Shown piece by piece: positions 8,829 to 31,900 of a stretch of 41,413 bases of DNA (position 1 is its first letter; each line of letters opens with the position of its first letter). The notes under the pieces are model-generated. The model did not search any database and had not been told where the DNA came from. It worked only from the letters and a program-made list of their open reading frames with translations. The position numbers and the translations under genes are program-made. This DNA comes from Deltaproteobacteria bacterium (lineage in GTDB: Bacteria > UBA10199 > JACPAL01 > JAHFST01): NCBI GenBank assembly GCA_023265625.1, contig JAHFST010000016.1:1-41413 (forward strand). Direction: 5' to 3'.

Positions 8829-9548
8829 CTAGGCAAAAAGCTCTCTGGCACGATCTAAGTCGATCTTATCATCGATCTCGTTCCATCTCAAGCCGGCGAT
8901 ATCCACCGCCTGGAACAAAACCCCGTCGGCAATCAAACGATCATAGGCGCGTTCATAATATTCGTTCATACGCTTCTCTTTTAAAAATAATTGTTCCAAC
9001 GCGGTAAAGAGCGGTTTCACCAGGTCACTGGTAATTTTTTCGATCCCGATCGACTCACCCGCGGCCGAGGCAACGGGGACATCCTTACCAATCTTTTGTA
9101 TCCGTCCTTCCGAACCCAACGTCACTTTGACTTCCTCATCACCCAGGGCGACCGAACGGTCGACCACAATGCCATTCCCATGGGTCTGCAACAGCCGTGT
9201 CAAGATCTCCGGCTCAAAAACAACATCGCCATCGAGTTTGATAAAATCGTCTCCGTCGATGGCCCGTTGCGCCAACATCAAGGAATACCCTGTGTTGGTG
9301 GTGGCAAATTGTTCATTCAGGACAAACTGCGCCGCCAAATCAGGATGCCGTTCCTGAACATGCTGTTTGATGCGTGGGGCCAGGTGCCCCGTCACAAATA
9401 CGATCGAGGTAATACGATGCTCCATGAGGGAAGATATCATTCGATCCAAGATGGTCGAGGAACCGATCGGCAGCAGTGTCTTGGGGCAATCCGATGTCAA
9501 CCCACCCAAACGACTCCCCAACCCTGCGCACAGGATAACGGCTTTCAC
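8829..9548 (-). CDS. Nucleotidyltransferase of the LicC/PntC/inositol-phosphate type
   Basis: A 239-aa single-domain NTP transferase. The nucleotide loop is AVILCAGLGSRLGGLTSDCPK and the metal-binding pair lies in KLDGDVVF (D106, D108). The 'WNEIDDKIDLDRARELF' C-terminus resembles enzymes that load CTP on phosphocholine, 2-aminoethylphosphonate or inositol phosphate. There is no hexapeptide repeat domain, unlike GlmU or RmlA-like pyrophosphorylases with extensions. The GTG start overlaps the pit stop codon (GTGA, 9545-9548), so the two are translationally coupled. The open frame extends further upstream, but that part lies within pit and has no family similarity. Substrate is unknown. Its place in a phosphate operon suggests a phospho-alcohol or phosphonate head group, perhaps for envelope decoration under Pi control (inference). 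Confidence 0.75.
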   Translation of the reverse strand: MKAVILCAGLGSRLGGLTSDCPKTLLPIGSSTILDRMISSLMEHRITSIVFVTGHLAPRIKQHVQERHPDLAAQFVLNEQFATTNTGYSLMLAQRAIDGDDFIKLDGDVVFEPEILTRLLQTHGNGIVVDRSVALGDEEVKVTLGSEGRIQKIGKDVPVASAAGESIGIEKITSDLVKPLFTALEQLFLKEKRMNEYYERAYDRLIADGVLFQAVDIAGLRWNEIDDKIDLDRARELFA

Positions 9549-10549
9549 CCAAAAACTCGTGTCATGTAATAAAACAGCGCTGCCACCAGGGCCGAGGCGG
9601 GGATGGTCAAGATCCAGGCCAAGAGGATCGAGTTCACAATCCCCCAACGCACCGCCGAGAGTCGGCGGGTCGTCCCAACCCCCATAATCGCCCCGGTAAT
9701 CGTGTGCGTGGTGCTCACCGGGATACCGCCAAAGGTGGCAAGAAAAAGCGTGATCGCCGCAGAGGTCTCGGCCGCAAAACCGCCGACCGGCTGTAACTTG
9801 GTGATCTTCATTCCCATCGTTTTCACAATCCGCCAACCACCAAACATAGTGCCAAGCGCAATGGCGAGATGACAAGAGATGATGACCCACACTGGGACAT
9901 AAAACTTGGTGCCCAAATGCCCCGTCGAAAACAACAGGATGGCGATGATCCCCATCGTCTTTTGCGCATCATTGCCGCCATGCCCCAAACTGTAAAGACT
10001 GGCCGACACAAGTTGCAACCGTCTAAAATGCTGATCCACCCGAGACGGTGAAAAATTGACGAAAATAATATTAATCAGTGACATCAGGATAAAACCCAAC
10101 AACAAACCCAGTAGAGGGGCAATAAGGATAAAGGTGCAAATTTTTATCAACCCGCTGGTAATGAGCGCCCCAAAACCCGCCTTGGCAACGGCCGCTCCGA
10201 CAAAACCACCCACCAAGGCGTGAGAACTCGAAGTGGGCAGGCCCCACCACCAAGTGAGCAAGTCCCAAATGATCGCCCCCATCAGCCCGGAAAAAATAAC
10301 GGCCACATTCATGATGGCCGGGTCCACGATCCCCTTACCGATCGTCGTGGCCACATGAACCTTGAAGATCAAAAGGGCGGCAAAATTAAAGAAGGCCGCC
10401 CAGGCAACGGCGGCTCGAGGGGAAAGCACCCGGGTCGAGACAATCGTCGCCACGGAATTGGCCGCATCGTGAAACCCGTTGATAAAATCAAACACCAGGG
10501 CAACCAGGACAACAAAGGCGACCAGATAAAGAGAATGAGGATCAGGCAT
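9545..10549 (-). CDS. pit: PiT-family inorganic phosphate transporter
   Basis: A 334-aa integral membrane protein of the PiT family (low-affinity, cation-coupled Pi uptake). The family signature GFHDAANSVAT is at the N-terminus (residues about 25-35), and the duplicated half carries GGNDAQKTMGI. Another typical segment is GLPTSSSHALVGG. About ten hydrophobic helices are visible. Its ATG lies 8 nt inside the end of the DUF47 gene, and its stop overlaps the start of the nucleotidyltransferase. DUF47-pit pairs are common; being downstream of a complete pst set on the same strand is less usual. Confidence 0.95.
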   Translation of the reverse strand: MPDPHSLYLVAFVVLVALVFDFINGFHDAANSVATIVSTRVLSPRAAVAWAAFFNFAALLIFKVHVATTIGKGIVDPAIMNVAVIFSGLMGAIIWDLLTWWWGLPTSSSHALVGGFVGAAVAKAGFGALITSGLIKICTFILIAPLLGLLLGFILMSLINIIFVNFSPSRVDQHFRRLQLVSASLYSLGHGGNDAQKTMGIIAILLFSTGHLGTKFYVPVWVIISCHLAIALGTMFGGWRIVKTMGMKITKLQPVGGFAAETSAAITLFLATFGGIPVSTTHTITGAIMGVGTTRRLSAVRWGIVNSILLAWILTIPASALVAALFYYMTRVFG

Positions 10550-11162
10550 TCTTGAGAACTATCCCTTCAAGGACATTCGCCACATCTTCACAACGATCCG
10601 TGGCACTTTCCAATGTCTCGAGAATTTCTTTTTCTTTGATGACTTTGATGGCGTCTGTTTCACGCTCAAACAGATTCGAGATGGCCATGCGCAGGGCCTC
10701 ATCCGCCTCATTTTCCAGGCGATTGATTTCAATGCACTGGGCCAGGATCATCTCCGGCTTTTTCATGTTACGCAGCCGTGGCACCGCCTTCGACACCTCT
10801 TCCACCGCCCGCACCAGGGATTTCACGACCTTCTTCATATCCACACCGGGCGCAGGGACCTTGTAAAGCACGATGCGATTGGCCGTGCCGTAAATAAGAT
10901 CCAGGATGTCATCCATCTCGCTGACCAGGGAATGAATATCTTCCCGATCGATGGGGGTAATAAAGGTCTTATTCAAAAGTTCGATCGTGTCATGTGTGAT
11001 CTGATCGCCCACATGTTCCACATCCTCGAGCTTTTTGAGTTTTTCCTCTAAATCGACATGGTTGGAGACAAAATCATCCAACAACCTCGCCCCATGCAAG
11101 ATGTTGTTCGCCGCTTTCTCGAAAAGGTCAAAAAACTCGGTAGGTTTTGGAAAAAATCCCAT
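10542..11162 (-). CDS. DUF47 (PhoU-like) phosphate transport regulator, Pit accessory
   Basis: A 206-aa helical cytoplasmic protein of the DUF47/TIGR00153 family, distantly related to PhoU. Typical features are the N-terminal FFDLFEKAANNI, the segment EHVGDQITHDTIELLNKTFITPIDREDI with the E/D-rich PhoU-like metal motif, and ESATDRCEDVANVLEGIV at the end. Family members accompany Pit transporters and are thought to control them. It overlaps pit by 8 nt and follows phoU after 48 nt, so it belongs to the same run. Confidence 0.9.
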   Translation of the reverse strand: MGFFPKPTEFFDLFEKAANNILHGARLLDDFVSNHVDLEEKLKKLEDVEHVGDQITHDTIELLNKTFITPIDREDIHSLVSEMDDILDLIYGTANRIVLYKVPAPGVDMKKVVKSLVRAVEEVSKAVPRLRNMKKPEMILAQCIEINRLENEADEALRMAISNLFERETDAIKVIKEKEILETLESATDRCEDVANVLEGIVLKNA

Positions 11163-11210
11163 GCCGGGTGGGTATAGTGAATCGACCGGACCGCGTCAAC
11201 CTGGAAAATG

Positions 11211-11891
11211 TCAGTGCCGCAGTTTGGCCCCACCGTGGCGGATATCTTTGCCATTCACCATGAAGATGACCTCTTCGGCGATATTGGTGGCGTGATCGGC
11301 AATCCGTTCGAGGTGGCGCGCCACTAGGATCAAGCGAACCCCTCGAGCGGCCGCCTCCGTCTCCTTTTGCATTATCGTCACCACATCCTGAAAGATCTGG
11401 TCCTTCAGGTCATCCGCCTCATCATCCATCTCACACACCTGGTTGGCCAGTTCGGCATCCCGTTTCACAAAGGAATCGAGGGCCTGCTTGACCATCCTTT
11501 GGGCCGTCGCCGCCAATCGGGGCAGGTCTTGATAGGGTTTCAATTGAGGTTCCAGATTCAATTGGGTCACTTGTTGGCAGATATCAACCGACAAATCCCC
11601 CATCCGTTCCAAATCCTTGCTGATCTTGAGACCCAAAATGATAAATCTCAGGTCCGAGGCCGCCGGTTGCCGTAGGGCCAAGAGCTGCAAACAGCGTTCA
11701 TCAATCCCCATTTCCAATTGATTCACTTCGGGATCCTGACTCATCACCTCTTCCGCCATGTGAGAGTCTCTCGCTACCAAGGCTTGCGTGGACCTGGCAA
11801 TCATCTCTTCAACGATGGCCCCCATCTTCAGGATCTCGGCCTTCAAATCCCGTAATTCTTCCTCAAAATGCGTATCGGTGTGTCCTTGCAT
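11211..11891 (-). CDS. phoU: PhoU, negative regulator of the Pho response
   Basis: A 226-aa protein with two PhoU three-helix repeats. The first has FEEELRDLKAEILKMGAIVEEMI and MGIDERCLQLLALRQPAASDLR. The second has EMDDEADDLKDQIFQDV and ARHLERIADHATNIAEEVIFMV. The E/D-x-x-x-D metal-binding motifs are present in both. PhoU links the Pst transporter to PhoR and keeps it in the inhibitory state when Pi is plentiful. Its ATG shares one base with the pstB stop (TGATG), the usual pstB-phoU coupling. Confidence 0.96.
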   Translation of the reverse strand: MQGHTDTHFEEELRDLKAEILKMGAIVEEMIARSTQALVARDSHMAEEVMSQDPEVNQLEMGIDERCLQLLALRQPAASDLRFIILGLKISKDLERMGDLSVDICQQVTQLNLEPQLKPYQDLPRLAATAQRMVKQALDSFVKRDAELANQVCEMDDEADDLKDQIFQDVVTIMQKETEAAARGVRLILVARHLERIADHATNIAEEVIFMVNGKDIRHGGAKLRH

Positions 11892-12646
11892 CAGCCAAAC
11901 CTCCCCGTTATGTAATCCTCGGTGCGTTTCTCCCTTGGATTGGTAAAAAGTTGCTTCGTCTCCCCGTGCTCGATCAGTTCGCCCATGTAAAGAAAACTGG
12001 TAAAATCAGAGACCCGTGCCGCCTGCTGCATGTTGTGGGTCACGATCACGATCGTATAATTGGGACGTAACTCGTGAATCAACTCCTCAATCCGGGCCGT
12101 GGAGATGGGGTCCAAGGCCGAGCAGGGCTCGTCCATCAATAACACCTCGGGACTGACCGCCAAGGCCCGCGCAATACAGAGCCTTTGCTGCTGTCCCCCT
12201 GACAAACTGGTGCCTGAGTCTTTCAATTTATCTTTTACTTCATCCCAGAGTGCGGCCTTGATCAAACATTGGCGGGCCACTGCCTCCAACCGAGATTTAT
12301 CTTTCACTCCATTTAGGCGCAAACCAGCCACCACATTGTCAAAAATAGACATGGTCGGAAAGGGATTTGGTTTTTGAAAGATCATGCCCACCCGTTGGCG
12401 CAAACGCACCGGGTCCTCCCGGAAGATGTCCTTACCGCTTAATTGAATCTGGCCCGAGACACGCGCCTGGGGCACGGTCTCATGCATCCGATTGAAACAA
12501 CGGATCAGGGTCGACTTGCCACAACCGGATGGGCCAATGATGGCCGTCACCGTCTTTTCCGACATGGAAAAACCAATATCCTTCAACACCTGGTGGGAGC
12601 CAAACCAGGCATTCAAGTCCGCCACTTTAATTTTGTCTTCTGCCAT
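11891..12646 (-). CDS. pstB: Phosphate ABC transporter ATP-binding protein PstB
   Basis: A 251-aa ATPase of the high-affinity phosphate importer. Walker [10 protein letters not shown] is at residues 38-46, the ABC signature is LSGGQQQR, Walker B is [13 protein letters not shown], and the switch His is in [11 protein letters not shown]. The N-terminal [14 protein letters not shown] and the [12 protein letters not shown] segment after the Q-loop are typical of PstB, as is the C-terminal EDYITGRFG. It starts 2 nt after pstA and overlaps phoU by one base. Confidence 0.97.
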
Positions 12647-12648
12647 GG

Positions 12649-13494
12649 TTAACGTCTCTTCATGTTACGATTATTGATTGCGAACCGGCACCCGATGTTC
12701 AACAACAGGACAATTCCAATCAGGACCAAGGCCCCTGCCCAGGCCTGTTTTTGCCATTCCTCAAAAGGGCTGATCGCATACGTAAAAATTTGCAAGGGCA
12801 GGGCCGCAATCGGTTCCCGCAAACTGGTGCTCCAAAATTGATTGCCTAAGGCCGTGAACAACAACGGCGCCGTTTCACCGGCAATGCGCGCCACCGCTAA
12901 TAAAATCCCGGTGACAATCCCCGCCCGAGCCGTCTTGAGGATGACATGGATCAAGGTCTGGGAATAAGACACGCCCAGGGCCAAGGCCCCCTCGCGTAAC
13001 GCATTGGGGACAAGCTTCATCATCTCTTCCGTGGTCCGGATCACCGTTGGAATCATCAAGACACCCAGGGCCACGCCACCGGCCAAGGCGGAAAAATGTC
13101 CCATGGGCAGCACCACCAGGGTGTAGGCAAAAATCCCAATGACAATCGAAGGTGTCCCATTCAAAATATCCGTGGCAAAGCGAACCACCAAGGCAAAACG
13201 TCCCTTGCCAAATTCCGAGAGATAGATGCCGCCAAAAATACCCAAAGGTACCCCGATCAAGCATGCCAACCCTATCAAGCTGAGGGTCCCCACAATGCCA
13301 TTCCCCATCCCGCCCCCTGGTTCTCCAACCGGCCGGGGTAACTCCGTAAAAAAACTCCAATTCAACGAACTCGCCCCTTTTGACACGATGAAAAAAAGCA
13401 CCAAAAAAAGCGGGACCAAAACCACCACCACTGAGAGCAAGCTGGCACAAAACATGAAGATATTTACGAAACGGCGTGACCCATAATTAGTCAT
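12649..13494 (-). CDS. pstA: Phosphate ABC transporter permease PstA
   Basis: A 281-aa inner-membrane permease with six predicted helices. The ABC-permease EAA-like loop is [20 protein letters not shown]. The [20 protein letters not shown] and [11 protein letters not shown] segments match PstA. The start is set at ATG 13494 because it overlaps the pstC stop as ATGA (13491-13494); an ATG 13 codons upstream (13533) would lie inside pstC and lacks family sequence. Confidence 0.96.
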
Positions 13495-14408
13495 TCGCGC
13501 CTCCCAGCCACCGCCACACCACTGACCTTCCACACGAGAAACCGAGCCGCCGCATTGGTCAAAAAGGTAATGACAAACAGACTGATGCCAATCGCCGCTA
13601 GCGCCGATAAATGGAGGGCCCCGGAGGCCTCGGCAAATTCATTGGCCAACACCGAGGCCATCGTGTGGGACGGGGCCAACAACGACAGGCTAATCTCCGG
13701 GCGATTGCCAATCACCATCGTGACCGCCATGGTCTCGCCCAGGGCCCGGCCCAACCCGAGAAAGATCGCCCCCAAAATACCCGACTCGCTATATTTCAAG
13801 ACCGCCAGGCGTGTCACCTCCCAACGCGTCGCTCCAAGGGCTAAAGCCGCTTCTCGCTGATGCATGGGAACGGCTTGAAAGACATCCCGGGCAATCGAGG
13901 CGATGATAGGGATGATCATGATGGCCAAAATAATCCCGGCGGCCAACATCCCAATCCCATAGGCTGGACCGCGAAATAGCGGTAGGTTAAGCTGTATCAG
14001 GAGCGGCTCCACAGATTGTCGCAACCAAGGCGCCAGATAAAATATCCCCCACAACCCGTAGATGACGGAAGGGATGGCCGCCAATAGTTCAATTAAAAAA
14101 GCCGTCGGCCCCCGTAACCAATCCGGCGATAATTCGGTCAAAAAGATGGCAATGCCAAGACTGAAAGGGATCGCAAATAAAAGGGCCAACAAGGCTGAAA
14201 CGAGGGTCCCGTAAATAAACGGAACTAAACCAAACTCCTCGCCAACCGGATCCCACTGACTGTTGGTCAGTAACCTCCAACCCAGCTTTTGAAAAACTGG
14301 GGACGATTCCCACAGCAGGACCGATCCAATCAAAAAAACGACCGCCACAACACCGATCGCACAGACGAGGGAAATTCTCTCGAAGGTGCGATCGGTGTTA
14401 GCGGACAT
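13491..14408 (-). CDS. pstC: Phosphate ABC transporter permease PstC
   Basis: A 305-aa permease, partner of PstA. Typical PstC features are WDPVGEEFGLVPFIYGTLVSAL after the first helix, ELLAAIPSVIYGLWGIF, the EAA-like loop VPMHQREAALALGATRWEV and GRALGETMAVTMVIGN. Two starts lie two codons apart; 14408 is preferred because GAGG then sits 7 nt upstream instead of 1. The gene follows pstS after a very short gap and overlaps pstA by 4 nt. Confidence 0.95.
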   Translation of the reverse strand: MSANTDRTFERISLVCAIGVVAVVFLIGSVLLWESSPVFQKLGWRLLTNSQWDPVGEEFGLVPFIYGTLVSALLALLFAIPFSLGIAIFLTELSPDWLRGPTAFLIELLAAIPSVIYGLWGIFYLAPWLRQSVEPLLIQLNLPLFRGPAYGIGMLAAGIILAIMIIPIIASIARDVFQAVPMHQREAALALGATRWEVTRLAVLKYSESGILGAIFLGLGRALGETMAVTMVIGNRPEISLSLLAPSHTMASVLANEFAEASGALHLSALAAIGISLFVITFLTNAAARFLVWKVSGVAVAGRRE

Positions 14409-14421
14409 GATCATGCCTCAG

Positions 14422-15456
14422 TTAAGGTGTTTGAATCTGCTCAACAGTCTTGTCTAACCGATCCACCAACGACTGAGGGAGTGGGGCATAATACAAGCTA
14501 GGAGCTGTTTTTTGCCCCTCATGCAAGGCCCACTTAATAAAATTGACCAAGGCCTTCCCTTTCGCCGCATCCTGCTGCTTTTTATAGACCAACAGGTAGG
14601 TCAAAGAACTGATCGGATAGGCATTCTGCCCCGCCGCATCCGTCAGAGACACTCGATAATCAACCGGAATCTTTACCCCATCCGCAGCCGCCGAGGTCGA
14701 ATCGATGGAAGGGGTAATAAAATTGCCTGACTTATTCTGCACGCTCGCAAAGGAGATCTTGTTTTGCAGGGCGTACCCCAGCTCGATAAAACCCAAAGCC
14801 CCAGGCGTCTGTTGAATGACCCCGGTCACCCCTTCATTCCCCTTACCACCCAAACCGGTCGGCCAACTCACCGATTTGCCTGTACCGATCTTGGCCTTCC
14901 ACTCCCGACTGACCTTTGAGAGGTAATCGGTGAAAACATAAGAAGTTCCACTCCCATCGGAGCGGTGCGCCACCACGATCGGCTGATCGGGCAAGGTCTT
15001 GTCAGGATTCAACGCCACAATACGGGGATCGTTCCACTTGGTGATATGTTCCAAGAAAATATCCGCGATGACCGCTCCGCTCAACTTCAATCCCGCACCA
15101 GCCGCCGGCTGATTGTAGGCCAGGACCACGGCCCCCAAGACGGTTGGGATGTGCAGGATCGGTTGGCTGAGGGAGGTCTCTTCAAAATCCGACATCGGGG
15201 CGTCCGAGGCGCCAAAGTCAACGGTCTTGGCGGCGATCTGCTTGATGCCACCACCACTGCCAATCGACTGGTAGTTAAACTTCAAGTCCGGATGACTCTT
15301 TTGATAATCAAAGAACCACTTTGAATAAAGCGGGTACGGAAAGGTCGCCCCGGCCCCGTTGATCAACAAGGCATCGCCCGCCAAGGCCATGAGCGGCAAG
15401 GCAATAACCAGGGCCACTAGGGCCATGATTTTTTTTATATTTTTAAATTCCTTCAT
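14422..15456 (-). CDS. pstS: Periplasmic phosphate-binding protein PstS
   Basis: A 344-aa protein with a signal peptide of about 26 residues ending ALPLMALAG; no lipobox Cys is seen, so it is probably a soluble periplasmic protein. Binding-site blocks are INGAGATFPYPLYSKWF, SIGSGGGIKQIAAKTVDFGASD and AHRSDGSGTSYVFTDYL, all carrying the phosphate-coordinating Ser/Thr/Asp/Arg groups of the family. It delivers Pi to PstCA. It is the first pst gene, preceded by GAGGAG and a PHO-box-like site, so it should be expressed on Pi starvation. Confidence 0.96.
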   Translation of the reverse strand: MKEFKNIKKIMALVALVIALPLMALAGDALLINGAGATFPYPLYSKWFFDYQKSHPDLKFNYQSIGSGGGIKQIAAKTVDFGASDAPMSDFEETSLSQPILHIPTVLGAVVLAYNQPAAGAGLKLSGAVIADIFLEHITKWNDPRIVALNPDKTLPDQPIVVAHRSDGSGTSYVFTDYLSKVSREWKAKIGTGKSVSWPTGLGGKGNEGVTGVIQQTPGALGFIELGYALQNKISFASVQNKSGNFITPSIDSTSAAADGVKIPVDYRVSLTDAAGQNAYPISSLTYLLVYKKQQDAAKGKALVNFIKWALHEGQKTAPSLYYAPLPQSLVDRLDKTVEQIQTP

Positions 15457-15493: not shown

Positions 15494-15510
15494 TGTGACG
15501 TTTGTGTGAC
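15494..15510 (-). promoter_or_regulatory. PHO-box-like PhoB site upstream of pstS
   Basis: On the minus strand GTCACA occurs twice with an exact 11-bp period (15505-15510 and 15494-15499), reading GTCACACAAACGTCACA. This matches the layout of PhoB half sites (GTCAT/A-type repeats every 11 bp). It lies 38-54 nt before the pstS ATG. No convincing -10 hexamer is seen downstream. Confidence 0.7.
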
Positions 15511-15523
15511 AAATTGGCAACAA

Positions 15524-16705
15524 TTAGAATACCACCGTTACCTGGGTTCTCACCCGATGGTCATTCAGATTCAGCCCTCGGACATTTTGCAGCAAGGCGT
15601 AATCCATTTGCAACTTCAGGTTGTGCTTGTTGAAATAGTAACCCAAACCCGCGCCGTATTCGTATTGGTTCACCAAGGCCTTGTTCAGGATCAAACCACC
15701 GGCACGTGCCGTGACTTCAAATCGCTTGGGCAGGATAAAATATCCCGCCTGAGCCGAATAACCCCAATTGGTAATCGAAGGTGACTTCTGATGGGTCCGA
15801 CTGACCATCCCGGCCCCTTGCAGGTAAAGTCCATGGGATCGATAGACAACATCTAGGGTACCATGACTGGCATTAGTCTTGGCGGCAATCGATGAGGCCT
15901 CAAAAGCCGAGTTACGTTTGTTGAAAACATAACCCAAGCCCACTCCCAGGCTTGGCTCCTCGGTGTAATCCACATCCGATTCAGCATATTTATAAGCCCC
16001 AAAAATCGGGACTTCGATCCTGGTCCCGATCAACAGGGCCCTTTGGCCCGCATTGAGCACATTTTGCCCGTCGCCGTTCATGACGAAGGCATTGTAATTG
16101 AGGTGATAGTTCAAGAGACTTCCATGAACATTGGCCCCAATGTCCCGACCAAAGGTCAAGTTGTCGTTAATCAAGCTGCGATCCGGGTACTCCTGTTTCA
16201 TTGCGGAAACCAACTCGGTATAAAGGTAAGGAACCTTAAATTGCCCCACCTTGACCCCAATCGCATCCGTGGGGACCCAATCCAAATAATAATCATTTAA
16301 CAGCGGCAAACCCGTGGTACTTGGCGTTGTCACCGCAGCCGCCGTGGTGGTGCAAGCGGCGTTCGTGCAAACCGTGGCCGTGGTCGCCGCCGCACGGGTT
16401 GCAAAACCCATTTCAAACGCATATTTAAATTGCTTCTTGTAAACATTTCCCTCGAGACGAATCTCGCCCCGTTGTACGGCAAAGGTATTGGTATTCGAGG
16501 CCTTCTCTAAACTCGTGTACGTATAACGTCCTTGGAACCGACCATTGAGGAGGAGACTGTTATTCCCGTCCGCCGCATCAATATGTAACCCATCCTTGTA
16601 ATACACCTTCGGCGCATCCGCATCCTCCGCCCGGACCACCTGACTGCCCAGGATCGAGAGGGTCGCCAGCACTACGGCTGCTATCATCTTCTTGTTTGAC
16701 TTCAT
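15524..16705 (-). CDS. Phosphate-selective porin (OprO/OprP family)
   Basis: A 393-aa outer-membrane beta-barrel. The signal peptide is MKSNKKMIAAVVLATLSILG ending at VRA-ED. The segments LNGRFQGRYTY, EIRLEGNVYKKQFKYAFEMGF and VGQFKVPYLYTELVSAMKQE ('GqfK-P' type motif) match phosphate-selective porins O/P, and the last residue is Phe, the outer-membrane assembly signal. An Ala/Thr-rich insertion with two Cys (about residues 110-137) follows the second strand pair and is probably an external loop. The start at 16705 has AGGAGG upstream; an ATG 17 codons earlier is less likely. Four phased PhoB-type repeats upstream and pstS downstream (65 nt) support a role in Pi uptake across the outer membrane. 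Pi versus polyphosphate selectivity cannot be read. Confidence 0.85.
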   Translation of the reverse strand: MKSNKKMIAAVVLATLSILGSQVVRAEDADAPKVYYKDGLHIDAADGNNSLLLNGRFQGRYTYTSLEKASNTNTFAVQRGEIRLEGNVYKKQFKYAFEMGFATRAAATTATVCTNAACTTTAAAVTTPSTTGLPLLNDYYLDWVPTDAIGVKVGQFKVPYLYTELVSAMKQEYPDRSLINDNLTFGRDIGANVHGSLLNYHLNYNAFVMNGDGQNVLNAGQRALLIGTRIEVPIFGAYKYAESDVDYTEEPSLGVGLGYVFNKRNSAFEASSIAAKTNASHGTLDVVYRSHGLYLQGAGMVSRTHQKSPSITNWGYSAQAGYFILPKRFEVTARAGGLILNKALVNQYEYGAGLGYYFNKHNLKLQMDYALLQNVRGLNLNDHRVRTQVTVVF

Positions 16706-16766
16706 GTTTCCTCCTATCGGGTTAATTTTATAAACTTGTTTGATGGGCGCATTCATCTTCTGAGGT

Positions 16767-16805
16767 CATGACGTCTTCATGACCTCTTTGTGACATCTTG
16801 GTGAC
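16767..16805 (-). promoter_or_regulatory. Double PHO box upstream of the porin gene
   Basis: Four half-site-like hexamers with an exact 11-bp period: plus-strand starts 16767 (CATGAC), 16778 (CATGAC), 16789 (TGTGAC) and 16800 (GGTGAC). On the minus strand they read GTCACC, GTCACA, GTCATG, GTCATG with 5-bp A/G-rich spacers. This is the arrangement of two tandem PhoB dimers. It lies 61-100 nt upstream of the porin ATG. Confidence 0.75.
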
Positions 16806-16855
16806 GGGCCTTATTTGGATCAGAATCATCTCATCATGGCCCACAGAAACTAACG

Positions 16856-16900
16856 TTGACATGTGTCAAAAAATACTATTATAGTATTTAACGACACATG
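16856..16900 (+). promoter_or_regulatory. abiE promoter with nested operator
   Basis: A -35 TTGACA (16856-16861) and -10 TATAGT (16880-16885) are separated by 18 bp. A perfect 19-bp palindrome AAATACTATTATAGTATTT (16871-16889) covers the -10. A second inverted repeat, CATGTGTC (16860-16867) and GACACATG (16893-16900), overlaps the -35 and the start codon. This suits autorepression by AbiEi, which is known to bind inverted repeats at its own promoter. The predicted transcript start is only a few bases before the ATG and there is no Shine-Dalgarno, so the message may be nearly leaderless. Confidence 0.7.
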
Positions 16901-17686
16901 AAAAATAATGGATTTTATCTTCTCCGTGAGCTGCAAAGAACAGGACGGTCGATTTTTACAGTCGCAGATGCCCAATGTTTATTGAAAGGGTCACGTCCTG
17001 CCGTCATGGCTATGATAAATCGACTGCGGCAAAATGGCCTGATCGTCACCCTCACTAATGGCCTTTATGCCATTCTACAACCCACCGAGCAAACTCACGG
17101 TTTGCAACCGTTGCGGGTGTTAGATTCTCTCATGAGATACCTAGGCACCGGCTATTATGTTGGTCTCTTAAGCGCTGCCAACCATTGGGGGGCCGCTCAT
17201 CACAAGCCACAAATTCTTCAAGTCATCACGGCCCAGAGACATTTTTTAAAACGTCTCAAAAAATTGAAGATGGAATTTTACTTAAAAAAAAACTTCCCCA
17301 AAGTGGGTGTTCTTTCGGCAAAGACCCCCTTTGGATACCATCAGATCTCAACACCGGAACTCACTGCTTTGGACGTGATCACCTATGAAACTCGTTCTGG
17401 CGGTTTCAACAATGTTTGCCTTGTCGTGCGTGACCTCATCACATCCATGCAGGAAAAATCTCTCCTCGTCTGCTGTAAAAACTATGACACATTATCTTCG
17501 ATACAAAGGCTGGGCTACATGATGGAAGCTTACCGGGCTCCTAAAAAGCTCTACGCCCCGCTCAAACAGTGGATCCGCAATCAAATGAGATTGCCGATTC
17601 CTCTCTATGCCAAGGAAAAACGTAAAGGTCATATTCATCAAGACTGGAAGATTATTGAAAATGTCCCCCTGGAGTTTGAAGAATGA
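16898..17686 (+). CDS. abiEi: AbiEi-family antitoxin / autorepressor
   Basis: A 262-aa protein of the type IV toxin-antitoxin AbiEi family. An N-terminal winged-helix region (about 1-60: LLRELQRTGRSIFTVADAQ, then MINRLRQNGLIVTLTNGLYA) is followed by the AbiEi C-terminal domain with YYVGLLSAANHWGAAHHKPQ and the Lys/Arg-rich LKRLKKLKMEFYLKKNFPKV. Known AbiEi proteins repress their own operon and neutralise the toxin without direct binding. The ATG lies inside an inverted repeat. Its stop overlaps the toxin start (ATGA, 17683-17686). The operon is on the strand opposite to both flanking phosphate runs and is visibly A+T-richer, suggesting acquisition by transfer. Confidence 0.85.
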   Translation: MKNNGFYLLRELQRTGRSIFTVADAQCLLKGSRPAVMAMINRLRQNGLIVTLTNGLYAILQPTEQTHGLQPLRVLDSLMRYLGTGYYVGLLSAANHWGAAHHKPQILQVITAQRHFLKRLKKLKMEFYLKKNFPKVGVLSAKTPFGYHQISTPELTALDVITYETRSGGFNNVCLVVRDLITSMQEKSLLVCCKNYDTLSSIQRLGYMMEAYRAPKKLYAPLKQWIRNQMRLPIPLYAKEKRKGHIHQDWKIIENVPLEFEE

Positions 17687-18513
17687 TCCCGGCACAATTC
17701 ATTTATGATTGGCGTATTTATGCCCCTTGGCCCGACGATGATGATGTGGAACAGGATTTAATCCTTACAAGAATGCTGTGTGCGATCTACTCTGATTCAT
17801 TTCTTTCCAAAAAATTAGCCTTCCGCGGAGGGACCTGTCTGAATAAACTATTTTGGTCAAGGCCTGTCCGCTATAGTGAAGATCTTGATTTTGTGCAAAT
17901 TAATGCAGAACCGGCAGGGAAAACAATTGCCAGCCTGCGAAAGATTTTGGATCCTTTCTTTGAAGTAAAAGGAAAATGGGAGGCAAGAGAACACAGTTAT
18001 CGTATCAACTACTCTTTTCAACCAGAAATTGGCGGGGGAAGGCGAAGGATCAAGGTTGAAATTAATACCAGAGAACATTTCATGCTTGACGGCCACCAAC
18101 AAAAACCCCTCCGCATGGAGTCTTCGTGGTACTCAGGAAGGTGTGAAGTAGTCACTTTCTCTTTGGAAGAACTCCTAGCCACCAAGCTCAGGGCGCTTTA
18201 TCAACGACGCAAGGGGAGAGACCTGTTTGATCTATGGAAGGGTCGAGAGTTAAATCCGGATTGGAACAAAGTAGTCTCGATGTTCCTAAAATACATGAAA
18301 CAACTTGCCAAGCCGATCTATCGGGATCTCTTGCAAGACAACCTACAGGACAAATTACAGGACTCCCGTTTCCAAAATGACATGACATCGCTCATAGTGG
18401 ACCAAAAAGAATACGACGTCTACCAAGCCGCAACATTTGTGATTAAAAATCTCTTTTCCCAGGTACCGGAATCCCGGACAAAACAACGAAAAAAAGGGGT
18501 ACGCGAAGGATGA
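17683..18513 (+). CDS. abiEii: AbiEii-family nucleotidyltransferase toxin
   Basis: A 276-aa protein with the AbiEii/DUF1814 nucleotidyltransferase signature: LAFRGGTCLNKLFW (GGT at 49-51) followed by RYSEDLDFVQI with the metal-binding D67 and D69. A third conserved block is EELLATKLRALYQRRKGRDLFDLW, matching the family's 'eELlatKl-Al--R-k-RDlyDl'. Known members transfer nucleotides to tRNA or other targets and arrest growth, giving phage abortive infection. All core residues are present, so it looks active. It is translated with 4-nt overlap after the antitoxin and ends 6 bp before the convergent mgsA. Confidence 0.87.
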   Translation: MIPAQFIYDWRIYAPWPDDDDVEQDLILTRMLCAIYSDSFLSKKLAFRGGTCLNKLFWSRPVRYSEDLDFVQINAEPAGKTIASLRKILDPFFEVKGKWEAREHSYRINYSFQPEIGGGRRRIKVEINTREHFMLDGHQQKPLRMESSWYSGRCEVVTFSLEELLATKLRALYQRRKGRDLFDLWKGRELNPDWNKVVSMFLKYMKQLAKPIYRDLLQDNLQDKLQDSRFQNDMTSLIVDQKEYDVYQAATFVIKNLFSQVPESRTKQRKKGVREG

Positions 18514-18519
18514 CCTTTG

Positions 18520-18888
18520 TTAAGTCGCTGATAACCCCTGAATCAAAATCTTGGCCGAGGCAAAATTGGTCGCTAGCGGGATGTTGTGAACATCGGCGAT
18601 GCGGAGCAACATAAAGATATCGGGTTCATGGGGATGCAGCCCGAGCGGATCGCGGAGAAAGATCACGCCATCGATCTGACCATTGACGATCATCGCGGCA
18701 ATCTGGGCATCCCCCCCCTGCGGGCCGCTCTCCATCCGTGTTACTTCAAGCCCGGCTTGTTCGACATATTTTCCGGTGGTACCCGTGGCCACCAACTTAA
18801 ATTTTTTCATCAATTCCAAATTGTCCTTCACAAAGGCCACCATCTCGGCTTTTTTTCCATCGTGGGCAATCAAAGCGAGTGTTTTCAT
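18520..18888 (-). CDS. mgsA: Methylglyoxal synthase
   Basis: A 122-aa cytosolic enzyme that converts dihydroxyacetone phosphate to methylglyoxal and inorganic phosphate. The family blocks are ALIAHDGKK (H9, D10), VATGTTGKYV (phosphate-binding Thr/Gly loop), GPQGGDAQI with the catalytic Asp at 60, and FLRDPLGLHPHEPD with D80, H87 and D90. The protein is shorter than E. coli MgsA (152 aa) but complete over the core, like several other bacterial forms. It starts 3 nt after the phoR stop, so it should be transcribed with phoBR. Known MgsA enzymes are inhibited by phosphate, which fits expression during Pi starvation. Confidence 0.94.
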   Translation of the reverse strand: MKTLALIAHDGKKAEMVAFVKDNLELMKKFKLVATGTTGKYVEQAGLEVTRMESGPQGGDAQIAAMIVNGQIDGVIFLRDPLGLHPHEPDIFMLLRIADVHNIPLATNFASAKILIQGLSAT

Positions 18889-18891
18889 AAA

Positions 18892-20643
18892 TTATGCCTT
18901 TCGGGGAATGGTGAAGAAAAATTCCGAACCTCTTCCCGGTTGACTCGTGACCCCAACCTCCCCACCATGAGCCTGGACGAGGTGTTTGACAATGGCTAAT
19001 CCCAACCCGGTTCCTCCCGCTTGCCGGGAGCGGGCCTTATCGACCCGATAGAATCTCTCAAAAATATGCTCGAGATCGGTCGGGGCAATCCCCATGCCGG
19101 TATCCACCACACTGATTTTGTTCCCTGGTCCGCCTGACCCGACCGTAACACTCCCGCCTTCCGCTGTGTACTTGATGGCATTATCAATCAAGTTTCCTAA
19201 AATCTGTTTCAAGGCAACCCGGTCCGCTTGCACAAAAAATGATTCTGGCACTTTTGCACTAAAAACTATTTTTTTGACTTTGCATGCCTCTGCAAAATCC
19301 CCTTGCAGGTCTTCGATCAATCCCATGAGGGATACTGATGCGAGATGCAACTCAATCCGTCCTGATTCAATCGCAGACAGCTCCAAAATATCTTCCACAA
19401 GATTTTTCAATTGCGTGGCGTTGTTTTCAATCTTTTCAATAAAACGACGCGCCGTCGCCTCTTCGTCAACCCCATGTCGTAGGGTCTCGGCATAGCCCAA
19501 AATATTGGTCAACGGGGTCTTGAGCTCATGAGAGACATTGGCCACAAACTCGCGACGCACATCCTCCAATTGCCGGATCCGGGTCACATCATTGCAAACC
19601 GATACGCAGCCCCGTTTGTCTCCCCGGATCGTCAGCGGCGCGCTATGCACAATGAGGGAACGTTCCCCGTTGGCCAAAGGGATCGTAATCTCCTGTTCAT
19701 CCACCTGACCCACCTCCAACACACGATCAATGGATTCGTGCAAATCCTTATTGCGCAAACACTCCAACAGGGTTTTGCCGATACATTCACCTTCCAACGA
19801 GAGCATCGTTTTTAACGCGGGGTTCAGCAACACGATCTCGCCGCGCGCATTCGTCACCAACACCCCCTCCACCATGCCTTCCAAGATCGTCATTAATTGC
19901 TGCTTTTCCCCGGCCAGTTGGCCAAACTGTTTTTTGAGACTGCGCGCCATGCGGTTCACCGCCTCGGTCAACAGGCCCAATTCGTCTTGGCTGGAAGGAA
20001 TCAAACGCCGAGAAAAATCTCCCTCGGCAATTTGCGTGGCCACCTGGGACAACTCATTGAGCGGGGCCGCCAAGGTGCGTGAGAGAAAAAAACCAACCAC
20101 GCTCGCCAGCAGCAAAGCGATCAACGCCGAAAAAAGAATGGCTCGTTTTACTTCAAAAACAGTGTGATCAATCACGGTGAGCGGCAAGGCCACCCGGGTA
20201 AAACCGCGTTTCAGCTTCACCGCAACATACATCATGTTATGTCCCACCGTGGTGGAGTAGCGGCTGCTCACGCCATGATCTTCAGCCAGCGCCTGCTGAA
20301 TCTCGGGGCGCTGCAAATGATTTTCGACCGACGACAACACCGCCCCAGACAAATCTGAATCACCCAGCACCCTACCTGTTTGATCTACTATGGTCACACG
20401 AGCCTTCGTTTCACCGGCCAAGCGATCCGCCAAATTATCCAGGTCGTCTTGGTTCCAATCTTCCGCAGGAAGGGCATCGAGCCTATCTCGAATGAGATAG
20501 GCTTTTTCAGTCAATGTTTCTTCAATGTAATTATGGAGAAACCGACTAAGCGTCGGAGCCAGGTAAAAGTAAAGAATCAAGAGGCTGGCGGTAATCACCG
20601 CTACAAAACAACCAAACAACTTCCAGAGAATTTTGGATTGCAT
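18892..20643 (-). CDS. phoR: Phosphate regulon sensor kinase PhoR
   Basis: A 583-aa membrane histidine kinase. TM1 is at about residues 8-29, an extracytoplasmic domain of about 140 residues follows, TM2 is at about 171-192, HAMP is at about 193-245, and a PAS domain (about 255-355) precedes the HisKA box SHELKTPLTN with His372. The ATPase domain has NLIDNAIKYT, DTGMGIAP and GTGLGLAIVKH. The SHELKTPL and LE-x-x-RREFVANVSHE sequence before it are typical of PhoR. The large external domain is like Gram-positive and deltaproteobacterial PhoR rather than the short E. coli form. It lies 17 nt after phoB and 3 nt before mgsA. Confidence 0.92.
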   Translation of the reverse strand: MQSKILWKLFGCFVAVITASLLILYFYLAPTLSRFLHNYIEETLTEKAYLIRDRLDALPAEDWNQDDLDNLADRLAGETKARVTIVDQTGRVLGDSDLSGAVLSSVENHLQRPEIQQALAEDHGVSSRYSTTVGHNMMYVAVKLKRGFTRVALPLTVIDHTVFEVKRAILFSALIALLLASVVGFFLSRTLAAPLNELSQVATQIAEGDFSRRLIPSSQDELGLLTEAVNRMARSLKKQFGQLAGEKQQLMTILEGMVEGVLVTNARGEIVLLNPALKTMLSLEGECIGKTLLECLRNKDLHESIDRVLEVGQVDEQEITIPLANGERSLIVHSAPLTIRGDKRGCVSVCNDVTRIRQLEDVRREFVANVSHELKTPLTNILGYAETLRHGVDEEATARRFIEKIENNATQLKNLVEDILELSAIESGRIELHLASVSLMGLIEDLQGDFAEACKVKKIVFSAKVPESFFVQADRVALKQILGNLIDNAIKYTAEGGSVTVGSGGPGNKISVVDTGMGIAPTDLEHIFERFYRVDKARSRQAGGTGLGLAIVKHLVQAHGGEVGVTSQPGRGSEFFFTIPRKA

Positions 20644-20660: not shown

Positions 20661-21347
20661 TTAATCCGGTTTTTCCTTGAAGCGATAGCCAATGCCGCGA
20701 ATCGTTTCAATATAATCACCCACCTCACCCAGCTTCTCCCGTAACCGCTTGATGTGGGTATCCACCGTTCTCGTCGTGAGGGCGGCATCATAGCCCCAGA
20801 CTTGGTCGAGCAACAAATCACGCGTGGCCACCCGACCCCGGCTACCTAAAAGATATTGCAACAACTTAAATTCAATGGCGGTCAAACGAATCTCGTTTTT
20901 ACCGACCTTCACCTGGAATTTAGCGGGATCCATCTGAAGTTTGCCAAATGTGTGCAACTTACTATGCTGCCAGTCACGATCCTTGACGCGGCGCAAGATC
21001 GCCTTGACCCGCAAAACCAACTCACGCGGACTAAATGGTTTTGTCAAATAATCATCGGCACCCACTTCAAAACCGACCACCCGATCCATCTCCTCACCCT
21101 TGGCCGTCAAGATCATGACGGGAATGGCGCTCGTTCGGTCGTCGTTCTTCAAGGCCTTGCACACCTCGAGGCCGCCCATGTCCGGGAGCATCAGGTCGAG
21201 GATGATTAAATCGGGGATCAAGCGACGGGCCTTGGCCAAGCCATCGGCCCCGCTGCTACTCCCTTCGCAGACAAGCCGCTCCTGGCGCAGGTTATAATCC
21301 ACCAGTTCGGCGATATCACGATCGTCCTCTATGATAAGTACCTTCAT
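20661..21347 (-). CDS. phoB: Phosphate regulon response regulator PhoB
   Basis: A 228-aa OmpR/PhoB-type regulator. The receiver has the acidic pair E7/D8/D9, phospho-acceptor D51 (LIILDLMLPD), Thr in MILTAKG and Lys in DDYLTKPFSPRELVLRV. The winged-helix DNA-binding domain spans about residues 130-228, with LTAIEFKLLQYLLGSRGRVATR, VDTHIKRLREKLG and IRGIGYRFKEK. This is the PhoB recognition-helix region; it should bind the 11-bp-phased repeats upstream of pstS, the porin and itself. The genes downstream are phoR and mgsA. Confidence 0.94.
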   Translation of the reverse strand: MKVLIIEDDRDIAELVDYNLRQERLVCEGSSSGADGLAKARRLIPDLIILDLMLPDMGGLEVCKALKNDDRTSAIPVMILTAKGEEMDRVVGFEVGADDYLTKPFSPRELVLRVKAILRRVKDRDWQHSKLHTFGKLQMDPAKFQVKVGKNEIRLTAIEFKLLQYLLGSRGRVATRDLLLDQVWGYDAALTTRTVDTHIKRLREKLGEVGDYIETIRGIGYRFKEKPD

Positions 21348-23202: not shown

Positions 23203-23230
23203 GTAGGGGCTCAAAATTTTGAGCCCCTAC
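23203..23230. repeat. Dispersed 'gtaggggc' palindrome, copy 4
   Basis: A perfect 28-bp inverted repeat with GTAGGGGC and GCCCCTAC ends and a TCAAAATTTTGA centre. Its right end supplies the TAG stop (23227-23229) of the DUF4143 ATPase gene. Confidence 0.9.
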
Positions 23231-24531
23231 TGGGTAACATGGCTCACGGCATAAAGAGGGATAACCGTGATGTTGTCGTAGGTACAAAAATTTTCCAACG
23301 AAATTCTGACTCCTTGACGAAGCTTTTTTTCTGTCAAAAAGACATGCAGGCTTTGCATTTGGCCTCTTGTGCCCGCCTTCACTTCAACGGGAAAAACCTG
23401 GTTTGCCTTTTGGATCACGTAGTCAACTTCCGCCGTGCTGCCTTTCTGTTCGCGTTGCCAGTAATAAAGCGAGGGGTGCATATGGGATGGTTGATATTTG
23501 ATCAATTCAAGACCTGCAAAGACCTCGGCCAATCCCCCCTTGTTGATTAAATCAAAATCACCGGCCGTGAGGTACGAGGGGACATCCAGTCCCAACAATC
23601 TTTGCATCAGACCCGTATCCAGAGGCAACACCTTAAACTTGGATTCATCGATCTGAGCTCCCAGCGGCAAGCCCTGTGCAGACGTGTGACACACACGGGT
23701 GGCTAGCCCCGCCCGTTCCAACAAAAACAACGCCTGCTTCAGCGCCGCATGGGAGGCTTGGGATGGGATGTTGGAATACTTAAACTTGCGCCCGCACTGA
23801 AACACCATGGCGCGAAAAACCTCCGTGAGTCTTTCCACGGATAACCGGGTTTGGTATTTTGCAAAGTCGTCAATAAACGTTGTGATCAGGTCGTCCAGGA
23901 TTTTAAAACAGGCGTGAAGGTCTTTATGCTGGACGTAGTGCGCGACAACCTCCGGAAATCCCCCGATGAGTTGAAACGTCTTAAAGTGATCCACGAGACG
24001 ATCGTGAAAAACCGTGTCAAGCGGGCGGCCAATCCCGGCGTGCTGAACAAGCCCCAGGAGGCGATCCTCGCCAAGGCTTGACAGAAACTCATCAAAGGAC
24101 AGGGGATACATAAACAGCGAGGTGATGCGTCCCACGCCATGTGACGGAATCTGCGCCAACGCGAATTCTAACAACGAACCGGCCGCCACAACGTGCAATC
24201 GTGGCTTTTTCTCGTAGAAAAACCTGAGCGACGCCAGCGCCTCGGGGCACGCCTGAATCTCATCAAAAAAAACGAGCGTCCCGCCCTCTGTTACGGGAAC
24301 AGAAAAGTAGGCCGCCAGTTTTTCCAGGATCTTTGCCGGGTCAAGCGAGTTTCTAAAAAAAACGTGAATGTCTTTGTGTTCTTCAAAATTAACCTCAAGA
24401 AAATGTTCAAACTGCCTTCCCAAATGACGCACCGAAAAAGTCTTGCCCACCTGCCTTGCCCCACGAACCAATAGGACCTTGCGATCCTTTGACTTTTTCC
24501 AAGCCATGAGAGGGGTATCACTTATTCTCTT
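23227..24531 (-). CDS. AAA ATPase with C-terminal DUF4143 (nuclease-like) domain
   Basis: A 434-aa protein. The N-terminal P-loop ATPase has Walker A GARQVGKT at residues 25-32, Walker B LVFFDEIQ (D91, E92) and the sensor segment VVAAGSLLEFAL. The C-terminal DUF4143 domain (about 200-400) has AEVDYVIQ...VFPVEVKAGT, the D-x(n)-E-x-K arrangement of restriction-endonuclease-like folds. These stand-alone ATPases are widespread in anaerobes and candidate phyla, and their function is unresolved (defence or mobile-element links have been suggested). Start 24531 is chosen because MKRIS begins the family alignment; an upstream ATG at 24555 adds eight hydrophobic residues. The stop codon comes from a dispersed palindrome. 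Upstream the 80 bp to 24635 are A+T-rich and probably hold its promoter; I could not fix hexamers. Confidence 0.88.
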   Translation of the reverse strand, partial: KRISDTPLMAWKKSKDRKVLLVRGARQVGKTFSVRHLGRQFEHFLEVNFEEHKDIHVFFRNSLDPAKILEKLAAYFSVPVTEGGTLVFFDEIQACPEALASLRFFYEKKPRLHVVAAGSLLEFALAQIPSHGVGRITSLFMYPLSFDEFLSSLGEDRLLGLVQHAGIGRPLDTVFHDRLVDHFKTFQLIGGFPEVVAHYVQHKDLHACFKILDDLITTFIDDFAKYQTRLSVERLTEVFRAMVFQCGRKFKYSNIPSQASHAALKQALFLLERAGLATRVCHTSAQGLPLGAQIDESKFKVLPLDTGLMQRLLGLDVPSYLTAGDFDLINKGGLAEVFAGLELIKYQPSHMHPSLYYWQREQKGSTAEVDYVIQKANQVFPVEVKAGTRGQMQSLHVFLTEKKLRQGVRISLENFCTYDNITVIPLYAVSHVTQ

Positions 24532-24635
24532 CATAAACAGGGCCAAAGATACCACAAAAGCATCTATATATCAAACCAAATAGCATATTAAACTGTTAAT
24601 TATTAGGGTCAATTGTCCATCATTTTTGGAAGAAA

Positions 24636-28922: not shown

Positions 28923-31900
28923 TTACCGAATCAGGCTGCACCCGGATGATTTGCTCTCCTCCGGGGCGGCCGTTTTTTCTACCGCGGTTTCGACCGGCTG
29001 GCCCGGATCGACGGGTGGCAGTTCGCTGATCGACTGGCAAACGCTGGTGGCCGTGCCGGTGTTGGCGGTGCAGGTGAAGCCTGTCTCCACGGCGCAAGCG
29101 GCGGAACAACCGTCCCCGCTGGCGGTGTTGCCGTCGTCACAGTCCCCCGGGGTCCCGGCGGCGCACTGTCCGGACTGACAGGCCTCGACCCCGTTGCATG
29201 GATTGGTGTCGGCGCAGGAAGTCCCGTCCGCCACGGCGGAGTGCTCACAACCACCGGCACCGCAGGTATCGGTGGTACAGGTGTTGTTGTCATCACAAGC
29301 GGCATCATTTGGTGTGTGCACCACGGTGTCGGAACTCTCATTGCAGGTATCGGTGGTGCAGGCCTGCTTGTCATCCAGGGCCGGCGCCGCCCCCGCCTGG
29401 CAACCGGTCGAACCGTTGCAGCTTTCGACCCCGTTGCAAAACAGGCCATCATCGCATGGGGCGCTGTCCGCCGTATGGACAACCCGGTCGTTCTGCTCGT
29501 CACAGGAATCGGCGGTACACCCCACCCCGTCGTCCAAGGCCGGGGCGCTCCCCGCCTGGCAACCGAGTGTCGCATGGCAGATCTCCGAGCCGTTGCAAAA
29601 TTTCCCGTCATCACAACCCTGATGGACGGGGGTGTGCGTCACCCGGTCGCCCGCCTCGTCACACAGATCGGTGGTGCAGGCCACCCCGTCGCCCGTCGCT
29701 GGGGCAAGACCCGCCTGACAACCCTTCTTCGCATCACAGCTCTCCGCCCCGTTGCAAAAAGCCGCATCGTCGCAGGCACCGTCATCTGTGGTGTGAGTGA
29801 TTTTATCAGCCGCTTCATCGCAGGCATCTTTGGTGCAGGTGACTCCGTCATCGACGTCCTTCGGGTTGCCACTTCCACAGGTACCATTCGTACAGATTTC
29901 CCCGATCGTACAAAAGGCCCCGTCGTCGCAGCTCGTCCCATCCGATACCTTGGGGTAGGGTTGCCCCCCCTGACAGATATTTTGGGTGCAGGCATTACCG
30001 TCGTCCGAAATCTTGGTCCCATCGGCCAGGGGGGTATGCCCACAACCGCCGGTGGCGCTGCAGGTATCGGTCGTGCACACGTTGTTGTCGTCACAAACCG
30101 CATGGTCCGGGGTGTGGGTCACCTGGTCGCCCGCCTCGTCGCAGGCGTCGGCGGTGCACCCGATCCCGTCGTCCAAGACCAGCGTGGTTCCTGACTGGCA
30201 ACCAAGCGTCGCGTGGCACAGCTCTGCACCGTTGCAGAATTTCCCGTCGTCACACGAACTCGAAACGGGGGTATGAACCACCTGGTCGGCCACCTCGTCA
30301 CAACTGTCGGTGGTGCAGGCCACTTTGTCATCCAAAACCGGCGATGATCCCGGTTGGCATCCGGTGGCAGCGTCACAGCCCTCCACACCGTTACAGAACA
30401 GGGTGTCACTGCAACTGACCTGGCTCCCGCCGCAGATCCCGTTGGCACAACTGTCCCCGGTGGTGCAGGCGCTGCCGTCGTTGCAAGAGGCGGTGTTGTT
30501 GGTGTGGACGGCCCCTGTTTTCGCATCACAAGAATCATCGGTGCAGGCGTTGCCGTCGTCAACGTTCAAGGCCACGCTGCCGACGCACTGACCCGCGGCA
30601 CAGGCATCGGTCGTGGTACAGACGCTGCCGTCGTCACAGGCAGAGGCGTCCGCCTTGACGGGATTGGAGCACTGGCCCGTGGCCGGGTCACAGCTCCCGG
30701 CGTTGTGGCATTGATCCGAGGCGCTGCAGGTGACGGGGGAGGCCCCGACACAGATCCCGGCCTGGCAGCTATCCGATTGGGTGCAGGCATCGGCGTCGGT
30801 GCAGGAGGTCCCATCCAGCCCCTGGGCCACCTGCTTTCCATCCTGACAGGAGAGACCGGTGCAGACATTGCCGTCTCCGTCGTCCACCGCCCCGGACTTG
30901 GGCTGGGCGTTGCACTGGGTCGCTTCGGTGCCGTTACAGACATAGGTTCCGGTCCCGATACAAAGGCCCTCCCCGGCCGAACAGGGATCGCCCAGCTTGG
31001 GGTCGAGCGCCCCGCAACCACCGCACTCGTTGAGAATCCCTTGGCCAATCGGGTCGTTCTGACATTGCCCGCTCCCGGTATTGCAGGAATCGGTGGTGCA
31101 GACGTTGCCGTCATTGCAATTTTTGGTCGCTCCGGCGGTACACAGGCCGGCAGTACAGGCATCACCCACGGTGCAGGCGTTGCCGTCCGTACACGATGAA
31201 CTATCCGTCTTCGCGGGATTGGAGCACTGGCCCGTGGCCGTGTCACAGCTCCCCGCCTCGTGGCACTGGTCGGTGGCGATGCAGATCACCCCGAGACACT
31301 TGTCCACACAGTCCATCACCCCGTTGCCGTTGCTGTCGACGTCCGGCGTCCCACAGCCACAGACCCCGGGGGCATCCTTGGCCGGGTCACTGGCACAATT
31401 GTCCTGGCAATCTTTTTTCCCGTCGCCGTCGGTATCCTGCTCCGGCGTGCCGCAACCGCAGACTCCGGGAGACGTCTTGAGCGGGTCGTCATCACACTCC
31501 TCCGCGCAGTCGCCGGTCCCATCCTTATCGGTATCCTTTGTGGACCCCTGACATTGCCCCCCCTGGCACGCATCGCTCACCGTGCAGGCATCCGTATCAT
31601 CACACCCGGTCCCGTTCGCGACCGACTGCGACTCGCAGAGGCCGGTGGTCTCATTACAAGTTCCCGTCTTGCACACGGCGTCTTGCCCGGAGCAATCTTT
31701 GGACGCACCGTTGCAAAGGCCGTCGGTACAGATGTCATTTGCCGTGCAAAGGTTGCTGTCATCGCACCCGGTCCCATTGACAACCGGCTGCTTTTCGCAC
31801 TGGCCCGAGGTCGTATTGCAGACACCGGAGTTGCAGGCGTTGTCCAGGCCGGAGCAGTCCTGCACCGCTCCACCGCAAACACCTGCATTGCAAACATCCC

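Follow-up and report, generated by a model that had tools for sequence, protein, structure and literature searches.

Gene organization of the locus

The window considered here is a stretch of 41,413 nucleotides that makes up the whole of contig C11 in a 2.93-Mb draft genome of 37 contigs. Within it, two co-oriented genes, abiEi and abiEii, whose reading frames are joined by a 4-nt overlap (ATGA), lie on the + strand between two runs of genes on the - strand, a porin-pst run on one side and mgsA-phoR-phoB on the other (Table 1). This placement, including the coordinates, agrees with a first-pass annotation of the DNA, in which the feature of interest (16856-18513) starts at the -35 box of the abiE promoter. 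The pair is convergent with mgsA, the two stop codons being separated by 6 nt. Truncation of mgsA by an insertion can be ruled out, as its product has 122 residues compared to 121 in a relative of the same class (G001).

Table 1. Positions of the abiE pair, its control elements and the flanking phosphate genes in the window
Feature	Position	Strand	Description	Evidence
pstS-pstC-pstA-pstB-phoU-DUF47-PiT run	9545..15456	-	order conserved in G001	names from sequence inspection
Porin	15524..16705	-	Porin_O_P family	Pfam; start 16705 behind AGGAGG chosen by reading sequence
Pho-box-like repeats of porin promoter	16762..16805	-	four 11-bp repeats (GTCAY N6), read towards porin	repeat scan
abiE promoter	16856..16885	+	TTGACA-18-TATAGT, 11/12 consensus positions	promoter scan
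Candidate abiE operator	16860..16900		41-bp dyad; 20-nt arms, 85% complementary, 1 nt between	repeat scan and shuffles
abiEi	16898..17686	+	262 aa; two-domain antitoxin/autorepressor (winged helix and C-terminal antitoxin domain)	ORF, Pfam, PADLOC, AlphaFold/Foldseek
abiEii	17683..18513	+	276 aa; nucleotidyltransferase toxin (DUF1814/PF08843)	ORF, Pfam, PADLOC, invariant motifs, AlphaFold/Foldseek
mgsA	18520..18888	-	methylglyoxal synthase	PRK05234 and TIGR00160 above cut-off
phoR-like gene	18892..20643	-	histidine kinase	best NCBIfam match PnpS, below curated cut-off
phoB-like gene	20661..21347	-	response regulator	best NCBIfam match PhoB, below curated cut-off

An adjacent, co-oriented abiEi (COG5340) and abiEii (DUF1814/PF08843) are thus present, and family, motif and predicted-fold evidence supports the assignment of 16898-18513 as a canonical AbiE (type IV) toxin-antitoxin operon, the identity that had been proposed from the letters alone. 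The Pfam families AbiEi_1 (3.4e-23) and AbiEii (2.6e-35) match the respective products, as do the PADLOC models AbiEi (1.7e-64) and AbiEii (1.1e-92). Within the abiEi product the C-terminal AbiEi_1 domain is above its cut-off and AbiEi_4 is below (19.4 vs 25 bits). The NCBIfam equivalog for TAA_AbiEi (NF047376) scored 22.8 bits, far short of its 150-bit cut-off, and the toxin had no NCBIfam match; we therefore use the name AbiE in the broad COG5340/DUF1814 sense and not to mean a close homologue of the Streptococcus agalactiae system.

The window AbiEii carries nucleotidyltransferase motifs I and II (GG...DxD) and the lysine and arginine of motif III, and in an alignment of 40 sequences residues G49, G50, D67, D69, K168 and R175 are invariant. 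D180 is also invariant and D183 nearly so, in an alignment that does not include the S. agalactiae protein, whose motif IV aspartate is D192. Single-sequence searches of the PDB with the two proteins gave one match at E 0.96 for one and none for the other, and profile searches gave weak matches alone (best 0.0014 and 0.041). AlphaFold models had pLDDT values of 95.0 (AbiEi) and 93.8 (AbiEii). With Foldseek the best PDB match of the AbiEi model was 1zel (Rv2827c; TM 0.60-0.69), S. agalactiae AbiEi (6y8q) being weaker (TM 0.38-0.48), and the best match of the AbiEii model was MenT4 (6y56; TM 0.66-0.69), with Helicobacter pylori nucleotidyltransferase-like proteins and MenT3 also among the top matches.

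A promoter overlapped by a single dyad

The abiE promoter was the best of four sites found between 16600 and 18900, where shuffled sequences average 3.3 sites, making the scan alone weak proof. The inverted repeat around it is more striking. It is centred at 16880, pairs 17 of 20 positions and spans the spacer, the -10 box, the inferred +1 and the abiEi start codon. No other dyad with 20-nt arms in the whole 41-kb window is as good (next best, 16 pairs), none of 5000 dinucleotide shuffles of 16757-16920 reached 17 pairs, and a second, independent repeat search recovered the same 16860-16900 dyad. The first-pass annotation had described a compact promoter with nested palindromes; the compact promoter and its palindromes stand, but the inner (9-1-9) and outer (8-25-8) inverted repeats are concentric and are parts of the one 41-bp dyad. 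Transcription would start at about 16892, leaving a leader of 5-7 nt without a ribosome-binding site, and the abiEi mRNA is therefore probably near-leaderless with its start codon inside the operator.

We also asked how common such dyads are upstream of related genes. An AbiEi match was present at 90 of the 92 loci searched; after dropping L063 (a duplicate, identical to L100) and four loci with a short upstream region or no start codon, 85 were left, the window included. With 200 shuffles for each locus, a dyad was found at p<=0.01 in 22 of the 85 upstream regions, where about one would be expected, and at p<=0.05 in 33, leaving 52 with no dyad at the latter threshold; these loci are mutually related, so that they are not independent trials, and their start codons were picked by rule. 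The dyad centre falls exactly 18 nt upstream of the abiEi start in five of the 85 (the window, L112, L133, L144 and L145), and a Shine-Dalgarno-like word was present in none of these five, compared to nine of 32 other loci with at least 13 pairs. In all five the abiEi start codon lies in or adjoins the dyad, and the mRNA is probably near-leaderless. The naturally occurring operator of the window pair, a single, nearly perfect dyad of 41 bp that takes in the start codon, would be a simple substrate for studies of AbiEi-DNA binding.

By analogy with work on S. agalactiae AbiE and Mycobacterium tuberculosis MenAT, AbiEi would bind both arms of the dyad and repress its own promoter, and would also counter the toxicity of AbiEii. 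The toxin, for its part, would transfer a nucleotide from an NTP to its target (tRNA in the case of MenT) and stop growth, so that an imbalance between the two, as might arise when a phage infects or the locus is lost, would lead to growth arrest. The idea that the two genes are a non-functional remnant strikes us as extremely unlikely: both frames are open to full length, and the catalytic residues, the promoter and operator, and the translational overlap have all been kept.

Base composition of the pair

As a reference for composition we used 384 kb of the organism's own genome, made up of 20 stretches, 13 of which were chosen for other AbiEii matches, and drew from it 231 windows as long as the pair. 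The pair had been called A+T-richer than its surroundings, and this proved correct, if only mildly so: its GC content is 0.447 compared to a mean of 0.524 +/- 0.033 (z -2.3), and 3.5% of the reference windows are as low. The tetranucleotide distance is not extreme, being reached by 8.2% of windows. Third codon positions follow the same trend, with GC3 values of 0.48 for abiEi and 0.46 for abiEii compared to 0.58-0.66 in the 11 neighbouring genes computed; among 191 ORFs, 4.7% and 3.7%, respectively, are as low. The nearest AbiE, from the same class (L100), has a GC content of 0.454. Composition makes a foreign origin of the pair likely but does not prove it by itself.

A probable insertion between phoBR and the porin

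The relatives searched comprised 60 genomes: the organism's own, five of the same order, 40 of the same class and 14 more distant, none being of the same genus or family. The class search covered 46 genomes, own included, with the nearest relation above family level. The window AbiEii was matched in 21 of the 60 (own included), and outside the own genome strongly only in G006, G044, G051 and G041; none of the five same-order genomes gave a match. We opened neighbourhoods in 13 class genomes (G001, G002, G003, G004, G008, G012, G013, G016, G017, G022, G025, G032 and G045) and found no AbiE match in the opened regions using the window AbiE proteins as queries, which a very distant AbiE could escape.

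In G002, G012 and G022, phoB, phoR, the porin and pst run head to tail on one strand, although the porins of G012 and G022 are distant (29-30%) and may be paralogues, and in G025 phoB-phoR-pst is contiguous, again on one strand. G001 has the order of the window, pst-porin ... mgsA-phoR-phoB, but about 8 kb of other genes lie between the porin and mgsA, by eye an ACR3-like exporter, a receiver, two large permeases and a kinase-regulator pair. In G013 the porin is near a PhoR-like kinase, with a receiver in between, on a short contig. In G017 mgsA directly precedes a broken porin frame and the pst run, with no phoR seen alongside. The phoR-porin junction was absent from the opened regions of G003, G004, G008, G016, G032 and G045. 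The junction is closed in some lineages, and two others have different genes in it; this points to insertion into a variable spot as opposed to an ancestral position, and the first-pass view that the pair was inserted between two halves of the Pho genes draws support from the contiguous arrays and from the other cargo in G001. A pair of genes resembling a RelE-type toxin and a Phd-type antitoxin (by eye) was seen in G017 directly upstream of mgsA, beside the pst run (L036, 9673-10724). We take this association of mgsA with toxin-antitoxin genes to be a coincidence, as none was seen by eye in nine other mgsA neighbourhoods listed.

We consider it highly probable, on the strength of these sequence comparisons, that a canonical AbiE operon entered the junction between mgsA-phoRB and the Pho box of the porin by horizontal acquisition. 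A comparison with relatives lacking abiE had been suggested as a check; none of the same-order genomes carries this AbiEii. The comparison stops short of reconstructing the exact insertion event, since it includes no genome of the same family, mgsA is missing from this position in all four contiguous relatives, and the flanks show no target-site duplication (the longest word common to both is 6 nt). There are likewise no flanking repeats of 12 nt or more around abiE. The insertion would have been tolerated because transcription of mgsA-phoRB comes from the far side and the porin-pst operon retains a Pho box of its own. The interval, bounded by phoR/mgsA and by the Pho box of the porin, behaves as a place where insertions are tolerated.

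It might be argued instead that the place of abiE next to mgsA and the porin is original and that other genomes have lost the pair. AbiEii-family genes are indeed common in the class, with matches in 40 of the 46 genomes (own included), and the closest relatives of the toxin belong to it: in a tree of 44 AbiEii sequences the window protein forms a clade with L100 (= G006) and G044, both of the same class (support 100/97). We nevertheless judge an ancestral position to be very improbable, given that this AbiEii is missing from all five same-order genomes, that phoBR and porin/pst are contiguous in four class genomes, that the junction in G001 holds different cargo and that the GC3 of abiE is atypical. 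Neither G006 nor G044 has an MgsA match, so AbiE does not adjoin mgsA in those genomes. Acquisition is the reading that we favor, and the locus is a clear example of AbiE genes occupying a site that is closed up in some relatives and taken by unrelated genes in another.

Phosphate control and the defence-island proposal

The first-pass annotation had raised the possibility of a functional tie to Pi stress. In such a scheme PhoB, bound at the four-repeat box, would also drive abiE, and phosphate starvation would trigger or arm the toxin. The porin and abiE promoters are divergent and occupy one intergenic region, and the Pho array (to 16805) ends 50 bp from the abiE -35 (16856). The window has just one other exact GTCAY pair, at 15510 ahead of pstS, and the 384-kb sample of the own genome contains five exact pairs, one three-unit match and no four-unit match. 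The array reads towards the porin, and in four of the nine genomes scanned (G001, G002, G013 and G032) the porin is likewise preceded by a four-repeat array with one to two mismatches, none being found at this threshold in the scanned stretches of the others (G003, G004, G016, G017 and G045). As the four genomes with arrays have no abiE match in their opened stretches, the array belongs to the porin, and Pho control of abiE was ruled out as the leading idea. Furthermore, abiE has a consensus -35 of its own, and the sequence from the array to abiE contains no additional GTCAY repeat pair. A PhoB activation site is expected to overlap the -35 box, and the array lies outside that position. Although control of abiE by PhoB is conceivable, it lacks support, and we regard a pair wired into the Pho response as very unlikely. 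Among the titles listed from the one paper collection searched, none pointed to a phosphate link.

A different connection to phosphate could come from the convergent arrangement with mgsA. No convincing terminator was found at the abiEii/mgsA junction; a single weak terminator-like site lies inside abiEii on the mgsA strand (one found, 2.4 expected by chance). Phosphate-induced transcription of phoB-phoR-mgsA may read through into abiEii, produce antisense RNA and lower the output of toxin, an idea that we consider very improbable. If it were true, the balance of toxin and antitoxin would be phosphate-sensitive without a PhoB site at the abiE promoter.

The suggestion that the pair is a phage-defence island was not supported. 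Its immediate neighbours are porin-pst and mgsA-phoRB, no cluster of defence or mobility genes was found around it (PADLOC on three window proteins), the window contains no tRNA genes, and the pair stands by itself as a two-gene operon surrounded by pho genes, in a genome that contains nine AbiE pairs in all. About 5 kb away, at 23227-24555 (-), is an AAA_14/DUF4143 ATPase matching the PADLOC candidate defence model PDC-S01 (9.4e-135); two ATPases resembling it by eye are present at L197 (5889-7079 and 8702-9865). Further along, 28923-39827 (-) is a single open frame of 3,634 residues with cysteine-rich repeats and, by eye, Calx-beta-like stretches, and it coincides with a block in which GC is 62% and tetranucleotide composition deviates strongly.

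Distribution of AbiE and comparison with known systems

Relatives of the pair are widespread. A genome scan returned at least 548 relatives among at least 577 pattern matches listed, from many phyla, and the best 80 of these were kept; viral contigs yielded seven loci from 77 pattern matches, plasmids 80 of 72,556 records and phages two of 50,697 records. The own genome has 14 AbiEii-family matches (L187-L199 and the window), an AbiEi-type partner adjoining nine of them, window included, by PADLOC, which was run on the neighbours of all but L194, L195 and L198; at L197 and L199 the neighbour tested was not AbiEi. At L196 the AbiEi/AbiEii pair is in reversed gene order. Fourteen is not an unusual AbiE load, as G044 and G009 of the same class have 15 and 12. 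All told, the window pair is an ordinary AbiE operon at a probable insertion site, with the phosphate and island ideas unsupported; AbiE operons of this kind are already known, and this further example opens no new mechanism.

Within the own genome, a second pair (L083/L188) has an AbiEi with the same best PADLOC model (PDLC02266) and an AbiEii of 40% identity to that of the window, which groups elsewhere in the tree of 44 sequences; no pho gene of the window was matched within the 3.6 kb surrounding this second pair (L002). The AbiE of Deltaproteobacteria bacterium RIFCSPLOWO2_02_FULL_50_16 (L100), from one of the genomes noted above as having no MgsA match, is closer, with an AbiEii of 54% identity.

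Among the closest known systems is that of S. agalactiae V/R 2603 (PMC3985639). Its AbiE is likewise bicistronic (abiEi-abiEii), with an antitoxin made up of a winged helix-turn-helix and a C-terminal antitoxin domain, and mutating G49, G50, D67 and D69 of its AbiEii, which carry the same numbers in the window toxin, affected toxicity or GTP binding. In the same work, PabiE has repeats of 11 bp-N27-11 bp that extend to 23-N3-23, so that the promoter is also inside an extended inverted repeat, the plan seen in the window. The repeat sequences differ, however, the window dyad is shorter (41 vs 49 bp), and the inferred leader of 5-7 nt without a ribosome-binding site contrasts with one of 26 nt that has such a site in S. 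agalactiae (PMC3985639). The window AbiEi is also far below the NCBIfam equivalog cut-off.

The other relevant system is M. tuberculosis Rv2827c-Rv2826c, which encodes the MenT4 toxin and provides the best fold matches for both window proteins (1zel and 6y56). In the Rv2827c promoter, repeats of 23 bp form two pairs, with gaps of 13 bp (PMC7319586, where the term leaderless turns up solely among the references), compared to the one pair with a 1-nt gap in the window.
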